A stretch of DNA of 35,858 bases from a virus. The notes beneath the pieces are model-generated. The model made no database searches. It saw only the letters and a list, made by a program, of their open reading frames with translations, and had not been told where the DNA came from. Shown here in pieces: positions 231 to 27,405 of this stretch. The DNA lies in IMG/VR virus record IMGVR_UViG_3300031251_000069, positions 1 through 35,858 of that record, one strand, 5' to 3'. Positions within the stretch are counted from its first letter, which is position 1. The number at the start of each line of letters is the position of its first letter. The position numbers were made by a program, and so were the translations under genes.

Positions 231-3200
231 TTAAGCAATCGATATCGAATCTGCGTTTATAATTGCCTTTTCGTTCTTAGCTAGCGTTATACTCTGTGTA
301 CTTGGAACTGGCTTAGTAAATACAACTGAGGCTACGCCATTAATTGGTTGAATGTCAGCAATAATCTGCGATAGAACAATAGGAGCACCAACATCAAGAC
401 TTTCAATGTAGTTAATTATAGTACTTTTGATGTTATTAGAGACATCTCCAAGATTAACGCCGGCATTAGTAATAACAGTAAGAGCTAGATTGACCTGGAA
501 TGGCAGAGGTGGTAATGTCTCGATGGCGCTTCCAACCGCACGCTGCCCTGGGAAATCAGTTGCATTTGGCTCAAATCCATCAACAATGCGCTGAACTTTT
601 TGGAGCAGGCCAGTGTAGTAAGTATATCCATCAACGCCAGTGACAATTGTGTTACTATAGCCGATCTTACCTAAGTGCGTTACACTAGACTTGTTGGCAG
701 GCGTAAACTTATAGCTTCTGCTCCAAGGAGTGATGTAGATGTTTCTCCAGTTATTGTTACCAGCATCCAACACTGAGTAATGAACTTCTCTAATAGTGTA
801 GAACTTGTTAGCAAGACTCTCAATGATATAGAAACCGTTCGTACTCACAGATAGTAGTGCTGTGTTTGCGGTCACTGCAGCAGGATTAATCACTCTTAGG
901 AAAGGAGTATAGTTAGATTCGGTACCATATTGAACGATTGTATAGCTACCAACATTGTTGACATTGAACCAATTTGGCTCAACTAGGTCCTGTACAAATA
1001 GTGTGTCACCTTGTACTACTGCATCGCCCTCGTAGATGGCAATGTCGCCTGCATTCTCAAGGAACACGCCTTGATCGTAGTCGATAGTCTCTCTGTAGAT
1101 AACACCGGCAGAAGAACCAGTTGAACCTGCATAGTTACCGCCAAGGTTAATTTGAGTAGCAAGTGCTGGATTCACATTATTGATGCTGATAACTTGTAGG
1201 TAATATGAGTCTGGGTCAGATTGCCCCTTCACCCAATCACCTACTTGAACATACTTGAACGTGCCTACTGGTCCAGTGATGTAGTTAGCGTTTGCTGTAA
1301 ATACAGCATCGAGTGTCTGGTTGTTCATTGGCCTGACAGTGTTGAGCTGATCTGAGCCTGATAAATTTATGAAAATGATAGAGTCATTATCTACCGCTAG
1401 CACTCTAAAACGGCCATTGTTGTTAGAGGCAAAAGTTGATCCACTGAGTACTAAGTAGTCATCTACAGCTACACCAACGTCTAAGAAACTTGGAGATTGT
1501 CCATTCTGTCTGTTCAGTCTCATCAATCCATTAAATTTGAGAGATTGTAGCCTATAGCGAGATTGCGTAAGCGTCGACTGGATTAGGGATGCGAACGTTG
1601 GGATCTCAGTGAAGTTAGGGCCGGTATATGCAAACGTCAACTGTGTTGCACTGATTACAGTGACGGTATAAACACCATCTAGCACGTTGGTGCTGTCACG
1701 TAATGAGATGCTGTTACCAGTGTTCAAGAAATGAGGGGTCAAGGTGTTCACTGTAACTACGTTTGCAGTACTGCTCAAGCTTGCTATTGTAACGTATGCA
1801 GCGTGTGCAGGTGTCCACTGTATGATTGGGGTTGGGCAGATTTGAATTGTGCCACTTCCGACAGCAGTAGAAGACATAGCAACACCAAATGGATTGACAA
1901 CATCTACATAGTTAGAACCAACGTTAACAGCAACGATTGGTAAGCCTGACACAGTGGCATCGCCAGATGGTTTAGCTTTATTCTGTTGTGCCCAGCCAGA
2001 TAGTGAACCAAATGCATAGATTAAATCACCTGGGTTTACATTGACAAGGTTTACTCCAACGCCTGAAGCTGTCCATCTCCATATAAAACCAGCAGGAATA
2101 GAGTATGAGGCTGATACATCGACAATTGTGAATAATGTTGAGGATCCGAAACCTGTGGTCTTAGCATTGTAGGCATATTCAATAGCATTTGTTACAGGGT
2201 TAATATTAGTTACAGTGATACTGTCTGAAGCTTGCAGACGGTTCAATCTAGCAACACCAGAATCGTTTTGCAAGAGCACTGTATCTCCAGCGACAAAGGT
2301 ATCTGGGAATGCTGGGACCTGTACTACAAGATAGCTGCCGCTACCGTCCGTAGCAACTTCAGATTCAGCCTCGAGATACATCTTGATCTGGTTACCGGTA
2401 CCACCAAGAATCTCTACTGCGCCTGCAGAACCAAGTTGCATTGACTTAATCTGAACATTTCTCCTGTCATCTGTAATGTCGACAGTGGCAACGATAGGAA
2501 GCTGAGATAGCGCAGGTTGTGTAAACTGATGATAAAGGTTTTGTACCGTTGTAGGAATGAGTTTGAATAACTCTCCGTTTGTAGCAGTGTCAAAGTTAGG
2601 GACTGTGTCCATTGAGTAGACAGAAGGTTGTACACCCTGAAGCAAGAATGGTGTCTTCATGGTGAAGTTGGGGTTAGGATTTTCAAATGACTTAACCCAG
2701 TTTGCTCCATCATACGCGCTGACGTAATTATTACCCGGAGTGAATCCATATGCTAATGTAGCGGAAGTTTCTTCCTGCGTTGCTTTAGCAATCGTTAGGG
2801 AACTTACTCCAACTGGTGTAGCAGACATTATAGAGCTAGCATTAATAGTCGTAGAGATATTAAGTGTAGAAGTTCCAACAAGGGGGAAGATATTGATGCC
2901 AGCAGGATTATTGATTACTTCTGGAGTAGCCAATGAACCTGAGGTAGATGATACTGCAAAACCAGAAGTTCCAGCGCTTGCGGCGTGTACATTTCCATTA
3001 AATGTGTTTGTTATAGTTACTACGTTGCCTACAACGCCTGGTGTTCCGAAAGATGGGTCGCCTGTTACGGCTTGCTGTATAGCTAAGGCAACTGTGTTTG
3101 CACTAGCTCCAGGACTTAAGTTATAAACTCTTATATTTCTATACGATCCGTCATATGGCTCAGATGCACCCTGATTACCGATGTCAAACCAAATAGACAC

Positions 3201-6200
3201 TGGACCACCATTATCGTAAACGATAAAGTATTTATCGGTTAGTGAATTATTATTGGTACCAACAACGCCAGAGCCACCAGATATGGCCGCTGCAATGATG
3301 TTTGCTGCTGAGCTGATTGTTACAGCTGCAGTGAGGGCAATCAAGCTGCCGTTAATTGTTCCACCAGAGGTATCTGTGATACTTGCGTGAGCTATGACAT
3401 TTCCGTTGAATGTACCAGCATGACCTGAATTTAGTGTAGCTGAAGAACCAACGATCCAATAAACGTTGGCAGCAGTTGCACCACCAGTTAGTGTAATAGT
3501 TGGTGCGCCACCTGCACCAGTTGTAAGAGTGCTTGAGCATTGAAAGATATATGTTCCTGCTCCATTTAAAGTTAGAGTTCCAGGTCCAGAAGCAGCCAAA
3601 TTAAACGTACCAGAGGCTTCTTTGTACACACCAGGTGTGTATGTGTGTCCGTCAAGGATAGCTGGTATAGCTGTAGCAGACATTGCATTCATTGACGTGA
3701 AAGCAGCTAAGGCATCAGATTGTGCTTGCTGTGCTACGGTGTTAGCAATATATTCTGTTCCAGAGTATGTTCCAGGTGGAAATCCTGTAATAGATGTTCC
3801 TGGATATAAACCTAAGTTACCAGTCAATACACTTGAACCAGAGTTGGTAACTGTTGAGGCACCCAACACAGCAAAACTTGCAGCTGTAGCTAGAGAAGAT
3901 GGTGAAGACATGAAGAACCCAGATGTGCCAACGCTAGCACTTGGTAATGCTCCATTTTGAACATTAGTGATTATTAAACTAGAACCACTAGTAGTTGCTG
4001 TGAATGCGCTGCTCTGATTGATGGTTTGAGCAATTTTAGTTGCAATAGTTGAAGCTGAGTCATTAGCTAAAATTGTACCAACCATTAGATAGCTGTTAGC
4101 TCCAACAGTAGGAGGAGCAGACGTACCATTCTCGTTGATCCATACAGCAACAGAGCCAGCTGTGTCATAGATTAGAAAATATGTTCCGTTGAGAGAACCA
4201 CTAGAATCAGCTATAGTGGTGAAACCATATGAAGTAGGAGTACCTAATATATCGGCAACAGTTGTAATCGTATTAACTTCTGGGGTTCCGGGTGTTGTTA
4301 CAGATGCACTAGGATTTAATACGCGGATAGTATTACCACTAATATTTTGTACACTGAACTGGCCGCTATTGGAGTTAGAGACACCAGAAGATAAAATAAC
4401 ACTTATTATGTCGCCAATTTGTACAGAGGCTAGTGTGCCAGCACTAAATGTGTAATCGTAATAGCTTCCGCTAGATGCAGCGCCGTTTGGAAAGTTTGTG
4501 GTCGTTGTAGGATATGGACCGTGTACAGTGATCGTGTTTCCAGTTGTGAGTGCAGTAGCTCTTGCAGGACCAGAACCAAAGAAATAGTTGAAGGTCGTAA
4601 ACGACGGCGTGTTAGAGAATGAAGTTAGCGCAGTCTGATTAGGGATAGAGGGATATTGCATGCTAAAGCGCAAGAATTCACCGTCTGGACCATACTCATT
4701 GGCTCTAACAATCATAGCACCGTTACCAGATCCTACACCACCAGAGGCATACCAGTTTCTAGCTCTAAACCACATGGCATAGTCACTGAAGTTGGTGCTG
4801 TTAATCGCCGTGCCCCAGACGTTGTTATTGCCAAAGTCAATACCTGGTTGATTGTCAGCGTCTGTAGCAGAGAGTTCTGTTGTAGTTGGGATGAAGGACC
4901 CAACGGATGAGTCTCCGCTTATGTATCCAGCTTCTGTTCCATTACCAGAGTTAACCTGACCGGTTCTAGCTAAAGGAATATTGATTGTATTATTTTGAGG
5001 ATTGTTGTCGATGACAACAGCGACAGTGTCTGTAGCAGATAGTTCTAGCGGCTTGACGATTTCGAATTGATCCCCAACAATGTTGTCGAGACTTGTTCTG
5101 GCTAGTGCTTCCTGTGTACCAACTTCATCACTGCCTAGAATAGCAGCTATACTCCTTAGTTGGTTCTTGTTGTTGCCTCTAGTAAACGATATAATACTAC
5201 TATAATCAATATGACTCGTATTAAGTTCGCCAGTAGACTGTAGCACCTCACTGTATGGTCCTGAGTATGGATATACATCGGGGATTGCATTAAGTGTTAA
5301 AACACCTTTAGAATCATCGAATACTTGTCTGTTAAGGAATGTATTCTTGTTGGTTGTTTGATCGATCTTGAAGTGCGTCAACAAGCTCTTGCTAGATACA
5401 ATAGAGGCAGTCAAAGGTGGGTTACCAAACAACGCTAAAGGCGTAGAGGTAAACAGCGCAATTGCATTGCTTCCCATAACAACAGGTATAGCGATCGAAC
5501 CACCGTTTTCGGTTGTAGATGTGATCTTAATTGAATTAGATTCAAATACTGTTGCTAGAACGTTGATGAGACTATTATTGATAGAGTTAACGATATCATT
5601 TAAAGACGCTACTGGAGGATTTGGCGTAAACGTACCAAGCCAAAGTTGAGGGTACCCATCGGTGGCAAAAGCTTGTATATCAGCAGGATCTGTGACAGAG
5701 ACAACTTGAGATGTAATACTAGGTGTACCCAAGTTACCAGCGTTGAGAACGTCAATATATGTGTCGGTTCCGGCAGTTGTGTGCGAGCCCTTGTCAATAA
5801 TTTTGAACAGACCGGTGTTGTTAGAAGCCAACCATCCAATAGATCTTTGTGTAATGTATACGAAGTCACCTGGCAATAAGGCAGGAAATGCTGTAAGCAA
5901 GTTAGACATGATTCTCATCACGTTAGTACTTGGATTGCTTATCGTAAGAGTTGAACCGATAGCTATATTAAGTGCACGCTGAGTACAAAAAGTAGAATCA
6001 GGGACAACAATCATCTGAGAGGCGCGACCAGAAGCATCAGAAGATACGTTGTAGTTGCCACTAGCAGTCACTGTTGAAATTACAAAGCCCTTAGTGTCTG
6101 CTGAGCCAGCTGTAATATTATCGCCAGCCTTAATAGTAGTAAGAATCTCTAAGTTGCCTGTTTGTCTATTAAGAATGAACTGACCAGTTTGACCTGTAGA

Positions 6201-7988
6201 CGTTGTGGTCTGTGTAGGAAAAAGTTGAGCTAGTAGTGAACCACCAAGAATTTTAAGCGATGAACTAGATCCACTTTGATTAGAGTTGATCTTCATTGTC
6301 TGATTTGATGTTGCAGTTGCAGTGATGCCCGCAAATTGCTGATTGAATGCTGTCACCCATTCAGCTAGAGTGAGAGATGTAAAAGTCGATGCTCCTGGGA
6401 AATTACTTAAGTTAAACGCCCTGTCTTGTTGTGGCGTTCCATCTACTGAGATAACTAAGTCTCCTGGACTAGTAACATTCCAAGAACCAAATGTGGTTGT
6501 CTCGACTTGAGCGCTGATGGTTTTTTCTTTTAAACGCGTACTGTTCTGATATAGAGCGATAAATGAGAACTGAGCAGTTGGAAACTGTAAAATTGAGTTA
6601 GCATATAAAGTAGCATTGTCAGTTGCTTGTAGTGTAGCTACCTGGATGATTTCTGCATCCCATACATTCGGATACAAAAGAATGTTGGTCGAATTGTTGG
6701 TTAATCTAGCACTAAAAATTGTTGCTTGTTTGTTAATAGCTACAACAACTTCACCTACTTGAGCAGAAGAGATATTTATAAAGTCAGTAGTAGTAAAAAC
6801 TACAGTTTGAGTAATACCATCCACAGAGACACTAAGTGTTGATCCATTAACAAGTGAGAAAGGTCCAATGGCAGCGTTAATGACCTGCGGTCTAGTTACT
6901 GGAAAGTTAGCCAGTTGTAAAAACTGCTCTTTTCCAGTAGCGTTCGTAAGTAGAGTATCCACTGACTGACCGGCATATGAAGGTTGAAAGCCTGTACCAT
7001 CATCGATGTAAAGAATGGAAGGTTGACCTAAACTAGGTGGCTCGGTGATTACGGCAGAAGCAACTTGTTTGTTATCTATAGAGTCAGATATGCCTCTAAC
7101 AGCTGCAAGGATAGCCGCCTCTGTTCCTCTAGCAAGTGTATTAGTGTAAGAGTTAATTCTGTCTCTAAGTTCTTGATCTGTCTCTACGTCAGTACCACCG
7201 ATGAAGGCAGAAGTATTAGTAACTACTGCTCCTACAAAAGGAGAAGTATTAAACTGTGTTATTGTATTGACTGGCGCATTACTAATAGAGCCAGCCTTAA
7301 TAGCAATAGCAGCTATATTGTTAACTATAGTTTCACCAGCTGGCAGGATAGCATCCCTAAGAATGCTGAAATCGATCTCAGGGTTCTGATTATTGGCAGG
7401 GATCTTGACGATCGTACCTGCTGCAATAATGCGATCTGGTTGTCCCTGGGAGTTTACAATAGTGTCCGAGATGAGATGATTGTTCTGCAGGGCAGATGAA
7501 AGATTGATCTGAGAATAGGTTGGAAACACGGTGATAGAACTATAAGGAATAGGACCTTCAAATGAGGTCGTTCCCCTGCCAATGTACAAGGTTCCTGAAT
7601 TTGTCCAACCTGTGGTGTTGTTAACGTATAGTACGGTCTGACTAGCAATAGGTGGTGGCTTGAGGATATATAAGCTAGTACTTTGCAACTTAATACCAGA
7701 ATTAGAGATGCTGACATTGCCGGAAGCCTGCGTTGCCGCATAGCGTGTCAAGCCGTAGTCAGCCGCTCTATTATTTAAGTCACTACCAGAAACAGTAGCA
7801 ATATTAAGCAAGTTGAGTAGACTTAATATTGCAGCATTGTTCTCAAAGTCATTAGCTGCAGCGGCTTCAAGAAGAGTAAGAAGGACAGAGCCTTGATTGA
7901 CATCGTTCAACGGGGTGTTCGCAATTATGGTGCGAATCATGGCTCCCAGGAATTGGTTATAACTCTGTATTTTAATGTTTGATGCCAT
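231..7988 (-). CDS. Giant baseplate J-like protein with internal ice-binding-like (DUF3494) domain, 2585 aa
   Basis: J-like proteins form the wedge ring of contractile tails. Residues 1-100 have the family start (DVNQGSVLLTLLEA, then AADYGLTRYAAT), and residues 268-335 carry the central segment ETDQELRDRINSYTNTLARG...YIDDGTGF. The C-terminal 140 residues (from TGVDGYTYYTGLLQKVQRIV) look like the usual J C-terminus. About 2100 residues of Thr/Ser/Asn/Gly-rich beta modules are inserted between these ends. They include a DUF3494 domain (about 1362-1572) flanked by two copies of one module (about 1262-1362 and 1576-1686). Typical J-like proteins are a few hundred residues long, so this is a greatly expanded form. 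The inserts probably decorate the baseplate and may bind host surface glycans, which is inference. The gene follows the gp25-like gene by 27 bases and precedes another baseplate gene by 2 bases. Confidence 0.88.
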   Translation of the reverse strand: MASNIKIQSYNQFLGAMIRTIIANTPLNDVNQGSVLLTLLEAAAANDFENNAAILSLLNLLNIATVSGSDLNNRAADYGLTRYAATQASGNVSISNSGIKLQSTSLYILKPPPIASQTVLYVNNTTGWTNSGTLYIGRGTTSFEGPIPYSSITVFPTYSQINLSSALQNNHLISDTIVNSQGQPDRIIAAGTIVKIPANNQNPEIDFSILRDAILPAGETIVNNIAAIAIKAGSISNAPVNTITQFNTSPFVGAVVTNTSAFIGGTDVETDQELRDRINSYTNTLARGTEAAILAAVRGISDSIDNKQVASAVITEPPSLGQPSILYIDDGTGFQPSYAGQSVDTLLTNATGKEQFLQLANFPVTRPQVINAAIGPFSLVNGSTLSVSVDGITQTVVFTTTDFINISSAQVGEVVVAINKQATIFSARLTNNSTNILLYPNVWDAEIIQVATLQATDNATLYANSILQFPTAQFSFIALYQNSTRLKEKTISAQVETTTFGSWNVTSPGDLVISVDGTPQQDRAFNLSNFPGASTFTSLTLAEWVTAFNQQFAGITATATSNQTMKINSNQSGSSSSLKILGGSLLAQLFPTQTTTSTGQTGQFILNRQTGNLEILTTIKAGDNITAGSADTKGFVISTVTASGNYNVSSDASGRASQMIVVPDSTFCTQRALNIAIGSTLTISNPSTNVMRIMSNLLTAFPALLPGDFVYITQRSIGWLASNNTGLFKIIDKGSHTTAGTDTYIDVLNAGNLGTPSITSQVVSVTDPADIQAFATDGYPQLWLGTFTPNPPVASLNDIVNSINNSLINVLATVFESNSIKITSTTENGGSIAIPVVMGSNAIALFTSTPLALFGNPPLTASIVSSKSLLTHFKIDQTTNKNTFLNRQVFDDSKGVLTLNAIPDVYPYSGPYSEVLQSTGELNTSHIDYSSIISFTRGNNKNQLRSIAAILGSDEVGTQEALARTSLDNIVGDQFEIVKPLELSATDTVAVVIDNNPQNNTINIPLARTGQVNSGNGTEAGYISGDSSVGSFIPTTTELSATDADNQPGIDFGNNNVWGTAINSTNFSDYAMWFRARNWYASGGVGSGNGAMIVRANEYGPDGEFLRFSMQYPSIPNQTALTSFSNTPSFTTFNYFFGSGPARATALTTGNTITVHGPYPTTTTNFPNGAASSGSYYDYTFSAGTLASVQIGDIISVILSSGVSNSNSGQFSVQNISGNTIRVLNPSASVTTPGTPEVNTITTVADILGTPTSYGFTTIADSSGSLNGTYFLIYDTAGSVAVWINENGTSAPPTVGANSYLMVGTILANDSASTIATKIAQTINQSSAFTATTSGSSLIITNVQNGALPSASVGTSGFFMSSPSSLATAASFAVLGASTVTNSGSSVLTGNLGLYPGTSITGFPPGTYSGTEYIANTVAQQAQSDALAAFTSMNAMSATAIPAILDGHTYTPGVYKEASGTFNLAASGPGTLTLNGAGTYIFQCSSTLTTGAGGAPTITLTGGATAANVYWIVGSSATLNSGHAGTFNGNVIAHASITDTSGGTINGSLIALTAAVTISSAANIIAAAISGGSGVVGTNNNSLTDKYFIVYDNGGPVSIWFDIGNQGASEPYDGSYRNIRVYNLSPGASANTVALAIQQAVTGDPSFGTPGVVGNVVTITNTFNGNVHAASAGTSGFAVSSTSGSLATPEVINNPAGINIFPLVGTSTLNISTTINASSIMSATPVGVSSLTIAKATQEETSATLAYGFTPGNNYVSAYDGANWVKSFENPNPNFTMKTPFLLQGVQPSVYSMDTVPNFDTATNGELFKLIPTTVQNLYHQFTQPALSQLPIVATVDITDDRRNVQIKSMQLGSAGAVEILGGTGNQIKMYLEAESEVATDGSGSYLVVQVPAFPDTFVAGDTVLLQNDSGVARLNRLQASDSITVTNINPVTNAIEYAYNAKTTGFGSSTLFTIVDVSASYSIPAGFIWRWTASGVGVNLVNVNPGDLIYAFGSLSGWAQQNKAKPSGDATVSGLPIVAVNVGSNYVDVVNPFGVAMSSTAVGSGTIQICPTPIIQWTPAHAAYVTIASLSSTANVVTVNTLTPHFLNTGNSISLRDSTNVLDGVYTVTVISATQLTFAYTGPNFTEIPTFASLIQSTLTQSRYRLQSLKFNGLMRLNRQNGQSPSFLDVGVAVDDYLVLSGSTFASNNNGRFRVLAVDNDSIIFINLSGSDQLNTVRPMNNQTLDAVFTANANYITGPVGTFKYVQVGDWVKGQSDPDSYYLQVISINNVNPALATQINLGGNYAGSTGSSAGVIYRETIDYDQGVFLENAGDIAIYEGDAVVQGDTLFVQDLVEPNWFNVNNVGSYTIVQYGTESNYTPFLRVINPAAVTANTALLSVSTNGFYIIESLANKFYTIREVHYSVLDAGNNNWRNIYITPWSRSYKFTPANKSSVTHLGKIGYSNTIVTGVDGYTYYTGLLQKVQRIVDGFEPNATDFPGQRAVGSAIETLPPLPFQVNLALTVITNAGVNLGDVSNNIKSTIINYIESLDVGAPIVLSQIIADIQPINGVASVVFTKPVPSTQSITLAKNEKAIINADSISIA
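2931..3263 (-). repeat. Duplicated beta module, copy 2 (downstream of the DUF3494 domain in the protein)
   Basis: Residues about 1576-1686 contain LTDKYFIVYDNGGPVSIWF, then NTVALAIQQAVTGDPSF, then VVTITNTFNGN and SAGTSGFAVSS. It aligns with copy 1 along its length, so the DUF3494 domain sits between two members of a tandem module duplication. Confidence 0.75.
3273..3905 (-). other. DUF3494 (ice-binding-like) domain inside the J-like protein, canonical order
   Basis: Residues about 1362-1572 of the J-like protein follow the DUF3494 pattern in the usual order. First comes ASFAVLGASTVTNSGSS, then GNLGLYPGTSITGFPPGT, then a helix (AQQAQSDALAAF). Next are the TPGVY strand, LTLNGAGTYIFQCSSTLTTG, the ATAANVYWIVGSSATLNSG core and GGTINGSLIALTAAVTI. 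In known proteins this fold is an irregular beta-helix with an ice- or ligand-binding face and is best known from psychrophile ice-binding proteins and bacterial adhesins. Ice binding is not implied here; a surface-adhesion role is equally possible. A second, permuted copy is in the tail sheath. Confidence 0.85.
3905..4205 (-). repeat. Duplicated beta module, copy 1 (upstream of the DUF3494 domain in the protein)
   Basis: Residues about 1262-1362 of the J-like protein contain LNGTYFLIYDTAGSVAVWI, then a helix ASTIATKIAQTINQSSAF, then LIITNVQNGALPSASVGTSG. The same order and many identical residues recur after the DUF3494 domain (about 2931-3263). The boundaries are approximate. Confidence 0.75.
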
Positions 7989-20685: not shown

Positions 20686-23550
20686 TTAAGCTGACGACGT
20701 AGCTCTTTGAAGTGTAATTGTTGCTAGAACGAAATCTATGCCCTCTACGAGTTTCACAACTACGCTAATGTTGATGGTATTGCCGACGATCTGTACTACA
20801 AGTTGCTTATAACCGTTAGGTGCATCACTTGTGCTCACTGTAATGCCTTGAGCTAGATAACCAGTCAAGATGCTGTCGCAGGTGCTTTTTACTGCTGCTG
20901 CACTCACTGTGTTCTTTACACCAACATAGATAGCTTGAAGCTGATTACGGAAGTCGTAAGCTAGAACGTCAGATGCATATAGCACGTTAGCACGATTAAA
21001 TACCCAGTTTGGATCTGCACCGTAAGTCGTATTGTCAACTACAAGGCGGAAACCACCGGTTGGTGGCTTTTCCCAGAAGGTGATGCCATTTTGGATAGCA
21101 TCGTCATACTGAGTCGCAGGATTGAAGTCATTGACAATCTGAGCAGCAGGCGTAGACATTAATTGACCAGTCTGGCGGATACCAGAAGTATTGAAGTACT
21201 TGAAGGTCATTGGTAATCCTACTGGAGAACCACCGCGTGCACCAGCTAACATACAAGCTCCTGCCCAAGGCAAGAACCATACAAGACTACCAAGAGAATT
21301 AACTTCCAACTGATCTTGGATTGCAAGTTGGCAACGAGCATCGGCGAGATTCTGAGCTTGAAGCTTACAGTTGAGGTATGTGTCATGAAGCGACAAGTAG
21401 CCTTGGCACTCAGAACGAGCCTTAGTTGTAGCTTGTAGACTCAAGAAGGTCTTGACAGATTGATGAATTGCGGCAATCGTATAGTTAGAGCTTGGATCAG
21501 TCATCAAGTCCAAGATATCCTTAGAAGCATCTCTCGAGAAGAGGGGTACAACTGAGTTCACATGGACAGCTTGAATTGCCGCCAACGCGTTAGGAATATC
21601 AGCAGATTGAGTTGCGCCGAGTGACCCACCAGCGAAGTAGGTAGGACCTTGTGGGTCTAGAAGACCGTTAACGCCCTGTCCAGAGGTCTGGATCAACTTC
21701 ACGTTAGAGCTTTGAGCAAAGAATTGCTTAATTGCGTAAGCGTCGTCCTTAAACTGAGCGGGTAAAGAACCACCTGAGCTGTTTGCCCCAACATTTGCAG
21801 CTTCATCAAGAGCACTTGGTGGTAGTTGACCTACGAGTGCACTTGGTAACGCAGCAGTCCAAAGACCAGCAGTACTTCCGTTAATGAACTGTACAAGACT
21901 ATTCATAGATGGGAAGTTAGCGAGTGGGATCGTATACTCGATAACACTGTTGTTGATCAAGAGCAGGTTGGTTGCATTAACTGTAGCTACAGGAGCAACG
22001 CTACCACCGCCGACTCTTCCGAGTTCGAGGATAATAGTTCCACCGACAGTACCTGACTCAGTAGTCAAGGCGCCAGTGTTATTGATCGTGATCACTGACA
22101 TGTCTTCAGTCTCAGATATATATAGACCAGCTAAGATATTGACAGCTGCTAGCAAACCTCCGCTTACAAGCTGAAAGTTTAAACCGTGACCATTGCGCTG
22201 TGGATTAGATCCAAGTGCTTGTGCAATGTTCAAGAACGCTGCAGTATCAGCAGAACCAGAAACCGTGAAGGTCATTCCGGAAGGAAGACCAGCACTCCAG
22301 TTACCTGCATTTGTTAGTGCACTTTGAAGCAATGCTCTCGTCACGATACCACTTGGTAATGTGAACGTGTTGTCGTTAGCGCTTGCATCACCGTTGAGGC
22401 GAAGCACCATAGTAAGACCACCACCAGCAACAATTGTTCCACCAGCTAGGGTTACAGAGGTTCCAGGGCTTGTTCCTACGTTTCCGTAGAAGAAGCTTGA
22501 ACCAGTGTTAGTAATAGTTGAAGAAGCAAGAGCAGCGAAGCCTCCTGCTGCACCCAAAAGACTTGAGCCTTGTGAATGAACTTGGGCTGCAGCTGCGTAA
22601 GTAATTGCTCCAGTTAGAGCTACCATACTACCGTTAATCGTTGCTGTCTGAGAAACTGAGATACTTACATCAGCGATAACGTTACCTTGAAAGATTGCGC
22701 CAGCACTTGAAACACCTGAGTTGATTGTAGCAGAGCTACCGACAACCCAATATATGTTAGCAGCTGTTGCGCCACCAGTTAAGATCATAGTTGGAACAGC
22801 ACCAGCACCAGCACCAGTCACCAATGTGCTTGAAGTAATGATGACATAAGTTCCCGCGCCATTGAAGGTGAGAGTTCCACTTGAAGTTCCTGCTAAGCTT
22901 GCTGCACTAGTGCTATAAACACCAGGAGTCAAGGTTTGACCGTCGAGTACTGCAGCAATTGGAGTCGCAGTTTCACCAGTGAATGCAAGGTAAGCAGCAA
23001 GCGCATTTGCTTCAGCTTCTTGAGCGAGAGCATCATTTAAGTGCGGAGATCCGCTGACAATCATGTCGAATGGAGCACCAGTAAGGTTGAATGAGGCAGT
23101 TGAAGTTGTCTGTGCTGGTTGAGCTGGAACAGCGACATCTTGATACGTGATCAAGTTTCCACTAGTTCCATATTTAAGCGACTGCAGAGTTCCAAAATTA
23201 TTTGCTAAAGCGAGCGAAGACTGTGTGGAGTTATTTGTCTTGTAGATGTAAACCGTCTGCGCTCCACCTGGCACTGCTCCGTCAGCAGCTGGTGCAAACA
23301 AGAAAGAGCAAGCGTCAACGATTGGACCACTTCCATATAGCGCTTGAATTGCAGGAAGTTGATCTGGTGTAAACTTACTGTTCGAGATATCAGAGATAGT
23401 AGATCCAGGAGGACCTGCAGTTGATTCGCCGAAGATGGCGACTAGTCCAGTTGGTCCTACAGGGAAGCCACCGCTCTTGTCGATGATCTCCTGAGAGTAA
23501 GCACCTGGTTTCATAATGGTCGCACCATTAAAGGTTACATTGATAGACAT
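20686..23550 (-). CDS. Tail sheath protein with inserted, circularly permuted DUF3494 domain, 954 aa
   Basis: The N-terminus has the sheath pattern (MKPGAYSQEIIDKSGGFPVG, LVAIFGESTAGPPGS). Residues about 600-954 form the conserved core and C-terminal handshake region (FAGGSLGATQSADIPNALAA, NGITFWEKPPTGGFRLVVDN, NRANVLYASDVLAYDFRNQL, VVKLVEGIDFVLATI). The sheath contracts to drive the tube through the envelope. About 210 extra residues (about 165-375) are a DUF3494 domain whose segments are in permuted order, inserted just after YGTSGNLITY in the variable outer domain. Many sheaths are 380-700 residues, so 954 reflects inserts. A standard AGGAG site precedes the ATG. The gene ends before an intrinsic terminator. 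Confidence 0.9.
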   Translation of the reverse strand: MSINVTFNGATIMKPGAYSQEIIDKSGGFPVGPTGLVAIFGESTAGPPGSTISDISNSKFTPDQLPAIQALYGSGPIVDACSFLFAPAADGAVPGGAQTVYIYKTNNSTQSSLALANNFGTLQSLKYGTSGNLITYQDVAVPAQPAQTTSTASFNLTGAPFDMIVSGSPHLNDALAQEAEANALAAYLAFTGETATPIAAVLDGQTLTPGVYSTSAASLAGTSSGTLTFNGAGTYVIITSSTLVTGAGAGAVPTMILTGGATAANIYWVVGSSATINSGVSSAGAIFQGNVIADVSISVSQTATINGSMVALTGAITYAAAAQVHSQGSSLLGAAGGFAALASSTITNTGSSFFYGNVGTSPGTSVTLAGGTIVAGGGLTMVLRLNGDASANDNTFTLPSGIVTRALLQSALTNAGNWSAGLPSGMTFTVSGSADTAAFLNIAQALGSNPQRNGHGLNFQLVSGGLLAAVNILAGLYISETEDMSVITINNTGALTTESGTVGGTIILELGRVGGGSVAPVATVNATNLLLINNSVIEYTIPLANFPSMNSLVQFINGSTAGLWTAALPSALVGQLPPSALDEAANVGANSSGGSLPAQFKDDAYAIKQFFAQSSNVKLIQTSGQGVNGLLDPQGPTYFAGGSLGATQSADIPNALAAIQAVHVNSVVPLFSRDASKDILDLMTDPSSNYTIAAIHQSVKTFLSLQATTKARSECQGYLSLHDTYLNCKLQAQNLADARCQLAIQDQLEVNSLGSLVWFLPWAGACMLAGARGGSPVGLPMTFKYFNTSGIRQTGQLMSTPAAQIVNDFNPATQYDDAIQNGITFWEKPPTGGFRLVVDNTTYGADPNWVFNRANVLYASDVLAYDFRNQLQAIYVGVKNTVSAAAVKSTCDSILTGYLAQGITVSTSDAPNGYKQLVVQIVGNTINISVVVKLVEGIDFVLATITLQRATSSA
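22426..23058 (-). other. Circularly permuted DUF3494 (ice-binding-like) domain in the tail sheath
   Basis: Residues about 165-325 hold the parts that normally come second: a helix (AQEAEANALAAY), LTPGVYS, LTFNGAGTYVIITSSTLVTG, ATAANIYWVVGSSATINSG and ATINGSMVALTGAITY. Residues about 331-375 hold what is normally the N-terminal part: LLGAAGGFAALASSTITNTG, then GNVGTSPGTSVT. The break falls right after PGTSVT, where the J-like copy continues as GFPPGT and a helix. The two copies in this window are otherwise very alike. Confidence 0.85.
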
Positions 23551-23561
23551 AGTTGTTTCTC

Positions 23562-24197
23562 CTAAATTAACTTAAGTTGTTTCATTTCAACTTTAGTCAC
23601 TAAACTCTTTTTAAGCCCTGGATACTCTTCACAGAACATATCCCATTTTATCTTAGCGTCCGACCTAAAATATCCCTTAACTTCAATTATATCACCACTA
23701 CTTAGCTGAAAATCTGGTAGATAGGCCCTTCCATTGCTTAGTGCAAAAATGGGTTCATATTGCCAAGTAATAGATTGGGCATCTAAATAGTGAGCATATT
23801 TCACTTCCCAGGTAGACTTCATGTTGATAGTCCCTTGAGAACCTACGTATGCATGCTTAGTAACTCGTTTTCTATTTTGGGTTGCAGTGGCTAGAGATAA
23901 CTTATTTTTAGTAAGTAGGGACATTGGTTTTCGTGGAAGATGACTAGCTTTACATTTTTTGCTACAGTATGACCTTTTTGCAGGTTTAAAATCCTTACCA
24001 TTTTTAATAAAAACCTTATCACACGCTGCACAAACGTGTATATACTCTTTATAATTACTGGGGTGCCAATTGGGTAAAGCCTTTTTATAGTTTTTATTAC
24101 GACAAGAAAGTGAACAAAACGCCACATCTGTTCTAGTGAGCTGTGACAAATGCTTCATCACCTTAGTCGAGCACCCTGAACAAATAAATTCCACCAT
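23562..24197 (-). CDS. Homing-endonuclease-like protein, zinc-finger plus PD-(D/E)xK nuclease, 211 aa
   Basis: Two zinc-knuckle pairs occur in the N-terminal half: C6-x2-C9 with C28-x3-C32, and C56-x2-C59 with C78-x3-C82. A short basic helix follows (PMSLLTKNKLSLATATQNRK), similar to DNA-binding repeats of phage homing enzymes. The C-terminal half has a nuclease pattern: E131 in STWEVKYAHYLD, then P161-D162 in YLPDFQL, then E172-x-K174 in IIEVKGYFR. Such free-standing endonucleases spread their own genes into related phages. The gene fills the slot between a small neck-region gene and the sheath, with 9- and 11-base gaps and no sign of a broken neighbour. Activity is inferred. Confidence 0.75.
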   Translation of the reverse strand: MVEFICSGCSTKVMKHLSQLTRTDVAFCSLSCRNKNYKKALPNWHPSNYKEYIHVCAACDKVFIKNGKDFKPAKRSYCSKKCKASHLPRKPMSLLTKNKLSLATATQNRKRVTKHAYVGSQGTINMKSTWEVKYAHYLDAQSITWQYEPIFALSNGRAYLPDFQLSSGDIIEVKGYFRSDAKIKWDMFCEEYPGLKKSLVTKVEMKQLKLI

Positions 24198-25233: not shown

Positions 25234-25858
25234 ACGAACGAAGTATATCTCTAATTCTCTCTTCCATTGTGTCTGCTAACTCTTTATTGATGCTTTGCAT
25301 GTCGCCAGTAAAATCTTTCGTTTTACTTGGTTTAACCCACTGAGAATTTGCGTCTTGCTTACTTGTAGCAGTTCTAAATTGTGTTGCCCTAGATCCAGTT
25401 GGAGCAATAGCATTGGACTGCTGCTTTGCGTTCTCAGCGCGCTCGGCGTTGATCTTCTTAAAGGCATCATATATATTAGTAGATACTTTAGGTCTTGTGT
25501 TGCTTGATGCTCCAACAGGAATAACCTTGTAAACACCAGAGCCATCCTTAATAGGTTTAGCATTTTGCAGGAGCTTACTCAACATTGGGTACGGAGGATC
25601 AGTGAACTCCATGTTACCAGAGTCTGTAGATACTTCCATACTCATGTTATTGAGTGTAAGCTCATTGATGAACTCTGGACTTCTCTGTTGAACACCGGCC
25701 TCGACAGCTTGTTGCATAGCAGACTTTCCTTGCTCTTCGAAAGCATTGGAGATCTCTCTATTGGCCTTGTTCACGATCTTCTCGATCGCTGTTGCATCAA
25801 GTCCCTTATTTCTTAGGGTAACTCTTAGTTTTTCAAGTTCAAATGATATGTTGGCCAT
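25217..25858 (-). CDS. Head-tail joining/tail completion candidate, 213 aa
   Basis: The first 70 residues are helical (KLRVTLRNKGLDATAIEKIV...AFEEQGKSAMQQAVEAG). The middle has beta-like strands with FTDPPYPMLSKLLQNAKPIK and GVYKVIPVG. The C-terminus is helical and acidic (ELADTMEERIRDILRSYEEG). A helical start with a 'YP..L....A' stretch recalls small tail completion (HK97 gp10-like) proteins, but this is only a hint. It starts in a TAATG stop/start overlap with the Nudix gene and overlaps the next gene by 17 bases. Confidence 0.55.
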   Translation of the reverse strand: MANISFELEKLRVTLRNKGLDATAIEKIVNKANREISNAFEEQGKSAMQQAVEAGVQQRSPEFINELTLNNMSMEVSTDSGNMEFTDPPYPMLSKLLQNAKPIKDGSGVYKVIPVGASSNTRPKVSTNIYDAFKKINAERAENAKQQSNAIAPTGSRATQFRTATSKQDANSQWVKPSKTKDFTGDMQSINKELADTMEERIRDILRSYEEGF

Positions 25859-27405
25859 TAGACCTTCTTAGCTATGGCTTTAGCTCTCATGTCTTGTAAG
25901 AAGTTAGTTTTTTCTTCATCTTGCCAATCTTGGGCAAAACTAATAGTTATCTTTCCGTTAGGTGATATTTCAATCTTTGGTTTAGTTAGATAGGGATAGT
26001 ACTCGTCATGTACTTTATCATGATTGGCAGGATTTGAGGAAAATGCTTCTACTGTCTGTGGGACAGATGACTTATCGTTGATCTTATCTTGAAGTTCTCT
26101 CAATTTTGCTTCTAACTCATCCATCTCTTTACCAACGGCTTGAGCAAGATGATTATGCTTGCCGACAACATCATGGACGACTTCCTCAAGCTTGTCAAAC
26201 AAGCCCATAATCCTAGCTTCAATCTGTTGAAGATCTACAGCCATGCCATTTCGCATGGTTTCACGTATAGACTCCATCTCTTCATATATATCACCGATAT
26301 TATGGCGCTTATACTCGTCTATCAAATGGTGCAAACCACCGTGAACCGCATCGTCATCTAGATCTTGGTCATCTAGCATATGCAGTTCTTTCTCGTCCTC
26401 TGGCATGTACCACTCAAATACACTCATGAGTGCAGCAGTGAGTTCAGGAAGAGACTTATTAGTGAATTGGTATACTGTCTTATGTCCGTCGTTGAGTCGT
26501 CCAGAGTATACGTCACTCATATGCTTTCTGATACTCATTGTGTATGTGTCGATCAATACATCCTTGAACTCTTCGTCCTGCATGCCTTCAACTACTTTAC
26601 GTAGAGTTCTGAACATGCCGTTTCCTACGAGTTTTAAAGCATCACCGTGAGTAACTTCAAATACGGCATCAGATTTCTGACGAATGATATTCTTCTCAAG
26701 TGTTTCAAGTGCAATCATCCCTTTAAGGGACTTACCAAATCTTTTAGATATGAAATCACTTATTGGCTTCTTACAGCATTTACGAAGTTCACTCCATGGA
26801 ATTTTATCCATCTCGTACCATTTCCAATCGGTCATGGATTCGCTGCCGTTATCACTCTTAGTATTTTTAGGCTTTCCGCGTACTATCTCGCCTAGAAAAA
26901 CTACGGTATTATTACCATTAGTTTTGCCTCTCCAGATCTCGGCTGTAATTCTTACAGGGCATCCAGTCTCTTCAGCTGCTTCTCTAGTTGCGCCTTGCTC
27001 AAAGCCTTCATCTTCGTGGCAGTGACCACCAGCGAACGCTAATCCGCCCTTGTTGTGGGTACCAAGTAGTATTCTGTTATGTTGATCCATAACTAGTACA
27101 GCTGCACAGTTGTTAGACTTATGATGTTTCTTCTCTAGATATTCTTCAAAAGACTTCTTGAGGTCCTTCTTAGACTTCTTTCTACTGATGCGATCTTCTT
27201 TTACCTTTTCTTTGGCCTTTTTATGGTGCTTCTCGCCCCATGTTCCGCCACGATCTTCACCACCATGCTCGGGTGCGTCTTTACCGGGATCGGTATACTT
27301 GGCTGCTACAGACTTTGGAGGACGTCCACGGGGTCCGTCCTTCACGTGTCCGTGAACGATAGCCATCATCATTCTATATTGTCTACGCGAGACGGCCTGG
27401 GGCAT
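25858..27405 (-). CDS. Nudix hydrolase domain fused to a structural-type protein, 515 aa
   Basis: Residues 98-215 form a Nudix domain with a perfect Nudix box: G127-x5-E133-x7-R141-E142-A-A-E145-E146-T-G148-C149. Enzymes of this family split nucleoside-diphosphate-X compounds; the substrate cannot be told here. Before it is a basic, conserved-looking N-terminus (SRRQYRMMMAIVHG, RGRPPKSVAAKYT) that I have seen at the start of phage head-region proteins. After it comes about 300 residues of helical sequence, with a coiled-coil stretch (IYEEMESIRETMRNG...AKLRELQDKIND), ending in a beta segment (KIEISPNGKITISFAQDW). A CAGGAG site precedes the ATG. Its place in the neck block suggests that it is part of, or packaged in, the head (inference). 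Confidence 0.75.
   Translation of the reverse strand: MPQAVSRRQYRMMMAIVHGHVKDGPRGRPPKSVAAKYTDPGKDAPEHGGEDRGGTWGEKHHKKAKEKVKEDRISRKKSKKDLKKSFEEYLEKKHHKSNNCAAVLVMDQHNRILLGTHNKGGLAFAGGHCHEDEGFEQGATREAAEETGCPVRITAEIWRGKTNGNNTVVFLGEIVRGKPKNTKSDNGSESMTDWKWYEMDKIPWSELRKCCKKPISDFISKRFGKSLKGMIALETLEKNIIRQKSDAVFEVTHGDALKLVGNGMFRTLRKVVEGMQDEEFKDVLIDTYTMSIRKHMSDVYSGRLNDGHKTVYQFTNKSLPELTAALMSVFEWYMPEDEKELHMLDDQDLDDDAVHGGLHHLIDEYKRHNIGDIYEEMESIRETMRNGMAVDLQQIEARIMGLFDKLEEVVHDVVGKHNHLAQAVGKEMDELEAKLRELQDKINDKSSVPQTVEAFSSNPANHDKVHDEYYPYLTKPKIEISPNGKITISFAQDWQDEEKTNFLQDMRAKAIAKKV

Follow-up and report, generated by a model that had tools for sequence, protein, structure and literature searches.

A probable circular permutant of the DUF3494 ice-binding-like domain in a phage tail sheath

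The window analysed herein, i.e., the whole stretch of 35,858 bases constituting a virus record, carries on its minus strand a gene for a 954-aa protein that was assigned as a tail sheath by comparison with PHROGs (phrog_279, tail sheath; E 2.1e-27). For the predicted structure of this protein, the top of the structural match list consists of sheath structures (Z 16-23), the best match being the phage 812 sheath 9eui_E (Z 23.2, 480 residues, 6.1 A); the conserved N- and C-terminal core fold of sheaths is thus present in the ORF. Whereas the chains of the Staphylococcus phage 812 sheath comprise 538-563 residues, with no DUF3494 part reported, the window's sheath includes at residues 165-375 (22426-23058, minus strand) a domain of the DUF3494 (PF11999) family, the two parts of which stand in exchanged order. 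Throughout, A denotes the long helix and coils b2-b6, B denotes coil b1 and the cap, and AB and BA denote the permuted and normal orders, respectively. The features discussed below are as follows.

20686..23550, minus strand: tail sheath protein, 954 aa, carrier of the permuted domain (PHROG 279 and phage 812 sheath structures)
22564..23061, minus strand: A half, long alpha helix and coils b2-b6, residues about 164-329, which in ordinary DUF3494 domains are C-terminal (Pfam, phmmer to 6eio, structural alignment to 7bwy)
22978..23031, minus strand: the long DUF3494 alpha helix (residues 174-191), which stands first in the permuted domain (DSSP of both models)
22423..22563, minus strand: B half, coil b1 and cap, residues about 330-376, which in ordinary DUF3494 domains are N-terminal (phmmer to 6eio 13-64; HMM B, E 9e-17; pLDDT)
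22552..22575, minus strand: junction at which the former termini are joined, b6 leading into b1 (equal length in 29 of 30 permuted copies)
3309..3869, minus strand: normal-order DUF3494 domain within the J-like baseplate protein (ORF 231-7988, 2585 aa; Pfam, HMMs A and B)

According to Pfam, the sheath matches PF11999 (E 1.8e-24) in two stretches, the best of which aligns residues 144-319 with profile positions 22-203, and the profile score of the domain is 87 bits against a curated cut-off of 28.7. Likewise, phmmer aligned residues 164-318 with positions 71-221 of the crystal structure 6eio (independent E 1.6e-14) and residues 315-366 with positions 13-64 (independent E 0.0029), such that 6eio is encountered along the sheath as 71-221 and then 13-64, i.e., with its halves swapped. 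The chain runs through the helix, b2-b6, b1, and the cap instead of the ordinary succession of b1, cap, helix, and b2-b6, and because of this difference in chain order the domain is classed as a circular permutant of DUF3494 rather than as an ordinary member. The J-like protein matches PF11999 (E 2.2e-36) in a single stretch, residues 1374-1560 covering profile positions 1-204 in normal order. Both the exchanged order in the sheath and the normal order in the J-like protein, as given in a preliminary description of the locus, were therefore confirmed.

The permuted arrangement is widespread among related phages. IMG/VR was scanned with the sheath (52 loci) and with aligned permuted domains (79 loci from the best 80 of 95 candidates, in part overlapping the sheath-scan set); as both search motifs of the domain scan lie in A, neither order was favoured. 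HMMs of A and B, run on all ORFs of these 129 loci (L001-L129) and the window, returned 121 A-B pairs, 83 of them distinct (30 AB and 53 BA, with the domain scan limited to the best 80 of 95 candidates). Chance or an assembly artefact was rejected as an explanation, given that 30 of the 83 distinct domains, spread over many contigs, show the AB order. With a model of the sheath C-terminal part, 75 sheath ORFs were found (53 distinct by their last 300 residues), 31 of which, some being fragments, lack the domain. The remaining 44 (27 distinct, one being a cut copy of the window's own) all carry it as AB and none as BA. Pfam independently assigned to the same permuted ORFs in other records profile positions of about 25-207 first, followed by a stretch beginning at 1-2. 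Outside sheaths, permuted copies were found in a protein of about 540 aa (L049 and L066), a J-like protein (L067), and a 353-aa protein (L098), with an odd form in L086. Records with a domain-bearing sheath, most of which are fragments, hold normal-order copies elsewhere in seven of 16 cases (8/17 counting the window), and a PF11999 match occurs in none of the 12 records with a domain-less sheath (most being fragments and some near-duplicates).

In permuted copies, the natural tail of A (..VNAQ) passes directly into the natural head of B (SPLLG.AGSF), and the same spacing separates the two halves in all AB copies except that of L086. Ahead of A, 11 of the 12 sheath domains at the first of two insertion sites (site 1, described below) carry an SGSPHLND-like stretch that by eye resembles SGTEHIND, found after B in normal copies. 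This fusion and this stretch together indicate that cut and fusion were reciprocal, A and B making up one complete domain. It is exceedingly improbable that the halves are instead two separate, truncated remnants of a decayed tandem pair. A state of this kind would be expected as an intermediate if permutation proceeded by tandem duplication and subsequent trimming. In the J-like protein of L086 (5625-12491, plus strand), a BA copy in normal order precedes an A, a B, and the truncated start of a helix, which may be what duplication-based permutation left behind. Nevertheless, the two parts form one complete domain, the junction is of constant length in 29 of 30 copies, the domain alone is predicted to fold with a pTM of 0.89, and the B half is retained in every domain-bearing sheath ORF, with conservation along its 46 columns in permuted copies correlating with that in normal ones (Spearman 0.61); decayed remnants are accordingly disfavoured, chiefly by the constant junction and the fold prediction.

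The AlphaFold model of the domain alone (222 aa; shallow alignment of 28 sequences) has a mean pLDDT of 92.3 and places B as well as it places A, with values of 93-97 over most of B, dropping in the last blocks to 70 and 42 (the last five residues, 218-222, lie below 50). The model of the whole sheath (shallow alignment of 34 sequences) is less confident (mean pLDDT 77.5, pTM 0.64), with values of 67-91 in most of the domain. The A half of the domain model superposes on native 7bwy (VIA-align; 149 residues, 1.6 A, Z 17.8), and hence the predicted model has the right-handed solenoid with a long helix on one face. Two structural aligners, both sequential methods, aligned native DUF3494 chains to the A half, which neither proves nor disproves the packing of B, and the unrelated continuous beta-helices 4yzq, 1rwr, and 6n2b align with ranges reaching into the B coil (Z 8.9-9.3; ranges given by the first and last aligned residues only), which lends weak support to a continuous solenoid. 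The pTM of 0.89 and the pLDDT of 93-97 over most of B suggest that b1 is stacked on b6 in the permuted domain. A failure of residues 331-375 to pack with residues 165-325, which had been named as the outcome that would overturn the preliminary description, was not indicated by the confidence scores of the model, and the claim of a true circular permutation, with one folded domain placed in the variable part of the sheath, is supported at the level of the model. With a probability of roughly 0.8, we consider 22426-23058 to encode a genuine circular permutant of the DUF3494/ice-binding-like beta-solenoid, a movable module residing in the variable surface region of the contractile sheath.

Published crystal structures place the native DUF3494 coils in the spatial order b1-b6-b5-b4-b3-b2, a discontinuous solenoid, and the native termini already adjoin in a "head-to-tail" manner, with b1 beside b6 (PMC7277481). 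Since the permuted chain order of helix-b2-b3-b4-b5-b6-b1-cap matches the spatial order, the solenoid would become continuous, as judged from the native structures and the confident prediction. In the proposed mechanism, the old N and C termini (coils b1 and b6, neighbours in the native fold) would have been fused with almost no residues added, and the chain would have been opened between the cap and the long helix, so that the new termini would lie where the cap meets the helix, at one extremity of the solenoid. The discontinuous native solenoid would in this way turn into a continuous one (helix, b2 to b6, b1, cap), and, with both chain ends at its cap end, the domain would be held end-on by the sheath; the permutation thus probably makes the domain an end-attached surface module on the tail. 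Compared with the family members 6EIO EfcIBP and 7BWX AnpIBP, with which the sheath domain shares the sequence family and the combination of helix and solenoid (the A half being 35-40% identical across 149-158 aligned residues), it differs in its swapped halves, its predicted continuous solenoid, its termini at the cap|helix junction, and its location in a phage sheath.

The preliminary description further proposed that permutation permits insertion into a loop, and this part requires correction. In the family of about 540 aa, the permuted copy of L049 and L066 lies between two strands, whereas the normal-order copy of L092, L095, and L111 lies in that host domain between a helix and the strand that follows it (strands named and placements judged from sequence), the two groups thereby serving as empty-site controls for each other; L088 resembles the latter arrangement but is shorter. 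As both orders are nested in one host domain, permutation is not required for loop insertion. Although the permuted state of all 44 domain-bearing sheath ORFs could be read as selection for the only form that fits a host-domain loop, this explanation is unlikely in view of the nested normal-order copies and of the native termini, which are adjacent in any event (PMC7277481). Rather than permitting loop insertion, the permutation would alter the point at which the solenoid is tethered and make the solenoid continuous, and the insertion site seems to decide which order is present. These arrangements constitute a natural experiment on the relation of chain order, tether point, and insertion site. 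A normal-order PF11999 domain also occurs in a 322-aa phage protein (L132, 175-1143, 176 bits; L133, 446-1414), where it follows an N-terminal helical region similar in appearance to the one in the family of about 540 aa.

The domain-bearing sheaths fall into two lineages that are about 40% identical to each other and that hold the domain at different sites (alignment columns 75-79 and 90-97). In lineage 1, the domain lies directly ahead of the strand LVLRLNG; in lineage 2, it follows the strands RLNGGAVDVITL and precedes the helix NIAELVEELN (the sequence being cut about 14 residues before A, with the exact junction slightly further on). The empty site is visible in domain-less lineage-1 relatives, e.g., L013, and in Myxococcus phage Mx1 (OR576727), the nearest isolate sheath (31.9% identity over 64% of the query), which has the same small host subdomain as the window's sheath but, unlike it, matches neither HMM A nor HMM B. 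On a tree of 29 AB domains, five changes are needed to account for either site, and a constraint uniting the 12 site-1 domains in one clade was rejected (p-AU 0.003; L086 left out, with the grouping set by sheath lineage and site, but after a first domain tree had been seen). Because the site-1 domains do not form one clade, domains have probably been exchanged between the two sheath lineages; the phylogeny of the domain conflicts with that of the sheath, as would be expected of a module transferred as a cassette, which suggests that sheath surface domains are traded between lineages. When the AB rows were held together as a single origin, p-AU was 0.054 (seven rows of L105, L109, L118, L128, and L129 with long or uncertain branches left out, and L086 unlabelled), and the normal-order rows L085 and L111 nest inside the main AB clade of the domain tree. 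In sheaths of about 600 aa (L034-L038 and L046), the ice-binding-like domain is absent and so is most of the small host domain, indicating that this sheath region consists of optional modules nested within one another.

Beyond these loci, tblastn with the sheath and J-like domains found no match in 50,697 isolate phage records (low-complexity filter on), no PHROGs family matched either domain at E 1, and the BFVD matches at E <0.01 were giant-virus DUF3494 proteins only. No permuted copy was recognisable among the matches of 34 positive genomes of 296 Bacteroidota or of eight positive genomes of 45 from the phylum of L129, the sampled cellular copies being in normal order or too partial to tell. 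Within a literature search that lay outside subscription papers and preprints, no paper was found on DUF3494 in phages, on circularly permuted DUF3494, or on ice binding in connection with a tail sheath. In their available text, papers combining tail sheath and circular permutation deal with phage genomes, families, and allied subjects and not with permuted domains; in further papers checked, ice-binding or antifreeze proteins appear solely among the references or as traits of hosts. No paper naming the contigs, from which their habitat might be read, was found.

With regard to function, the domain would face outward on the assembled tail, given its place in a sheath part that is absent in relatives, and, judging from sheath stoichiometry, hundreds of copies could cover the tail. 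According to the available text of a survey of sheaths, the extra domains of multi-domain ("type 3") sheaths are thought to serve adhesion or stability (PMC9230969). Such sheaths with Ig-like extra domains resemble the present case in their conserved N- and C-terminal core, the position of the extras away from the tube side, and their occurrence in large phages; for its 112 modelled sheaths, that text names Ig-like sandwiches and helical domains but no solenoid, whereas the extra domain of the window is a permuted beta-solenoid. It is rather doubtful that the domain has a purely structural role, cementing or stabilising the sheath without binding anything beyond the particle. Such a role would accord with the proposal of extra domains as sheath stabilisers (PMC9230969), but sheaths up to 75% identical lack the domain, the domain probably moves between sheath lineages, and some of the same phages have it in J-like and other virion proteins too. 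Adhesion of some kind, whether to ice, cells, or polysaccharide, for which we would give even odds, is the putative role, and a weak, multivalent adhesin held end-on is the favoured form. Proteins of about 540 aa that bear the same module also have a chitobiase-C-terminal-like domain.

At positions equivalent to the ice-binding face of AnpIBP, an assignment transferred to the sheath domain from PMC7277481, small and Thr/Ser residues are conserved (SSAT-N, STL-T, GAVT). This retained face, together with the binding of ice by DUF3494 members, would be expected if the domains formed a functional ice-binding array, anchoring virions on ice itself or on hosts attached to ice. Similar motifs also occur in normal-order relatives, however, and may thus be a constraint of the fold, and the family includes putative substrate-binding proteins, as stated in the available text of PMC12337378; such an array is therefore quite improbable. 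We regard as speculative, and unlikely as a whole, the broader proposal that a permuted, continuous ice-binding solenoid circulates as a cassette among the tail proteins of uncultured myoviruses, with a repeating array of its flat Thr/Ser faces covering the contractile tail and binding ice or another ordered surface as a multivalent adhesin. If the domain does bind ice or solids, the phage tail sheath would be an adhesive surface.

Other features of these loci bear on the exchange of tail modules and on the gene neighbourhood of the sheath. A second small movable domain (YTFTVT.ANAT.GATY ... SGTGD.TI) occupies differing insertion places in sheaths and baseplate proteins, including residues 121-180 in L076, the region around residue 483 in L106, and the J-like proteins of L110, L070, and L085; the pattern is full in L076, L077, and L110 and partial in the others. 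In the window, the gene 11 bases upstream of the sheath gene (23562-24197, minus strand) encodes a protein of 211 aa that has cysteines resembling a zinc ribbon and a domain similar to phage endonuclease I (PF05367, E 6.7e-7). Relatives of this protein directly precede the sheath gene in L002 and L036 as well, and it may be a free-standing homing-type nuclease that drives the exchange of sheath cassettes. Also on the minus strand (25858-27405), the window encodes a 515-aa protein with a NUDIX domain, and in phage Mx1 a gene annotated as a NUDIX hydrolase lies between the capsid and sheath genes.
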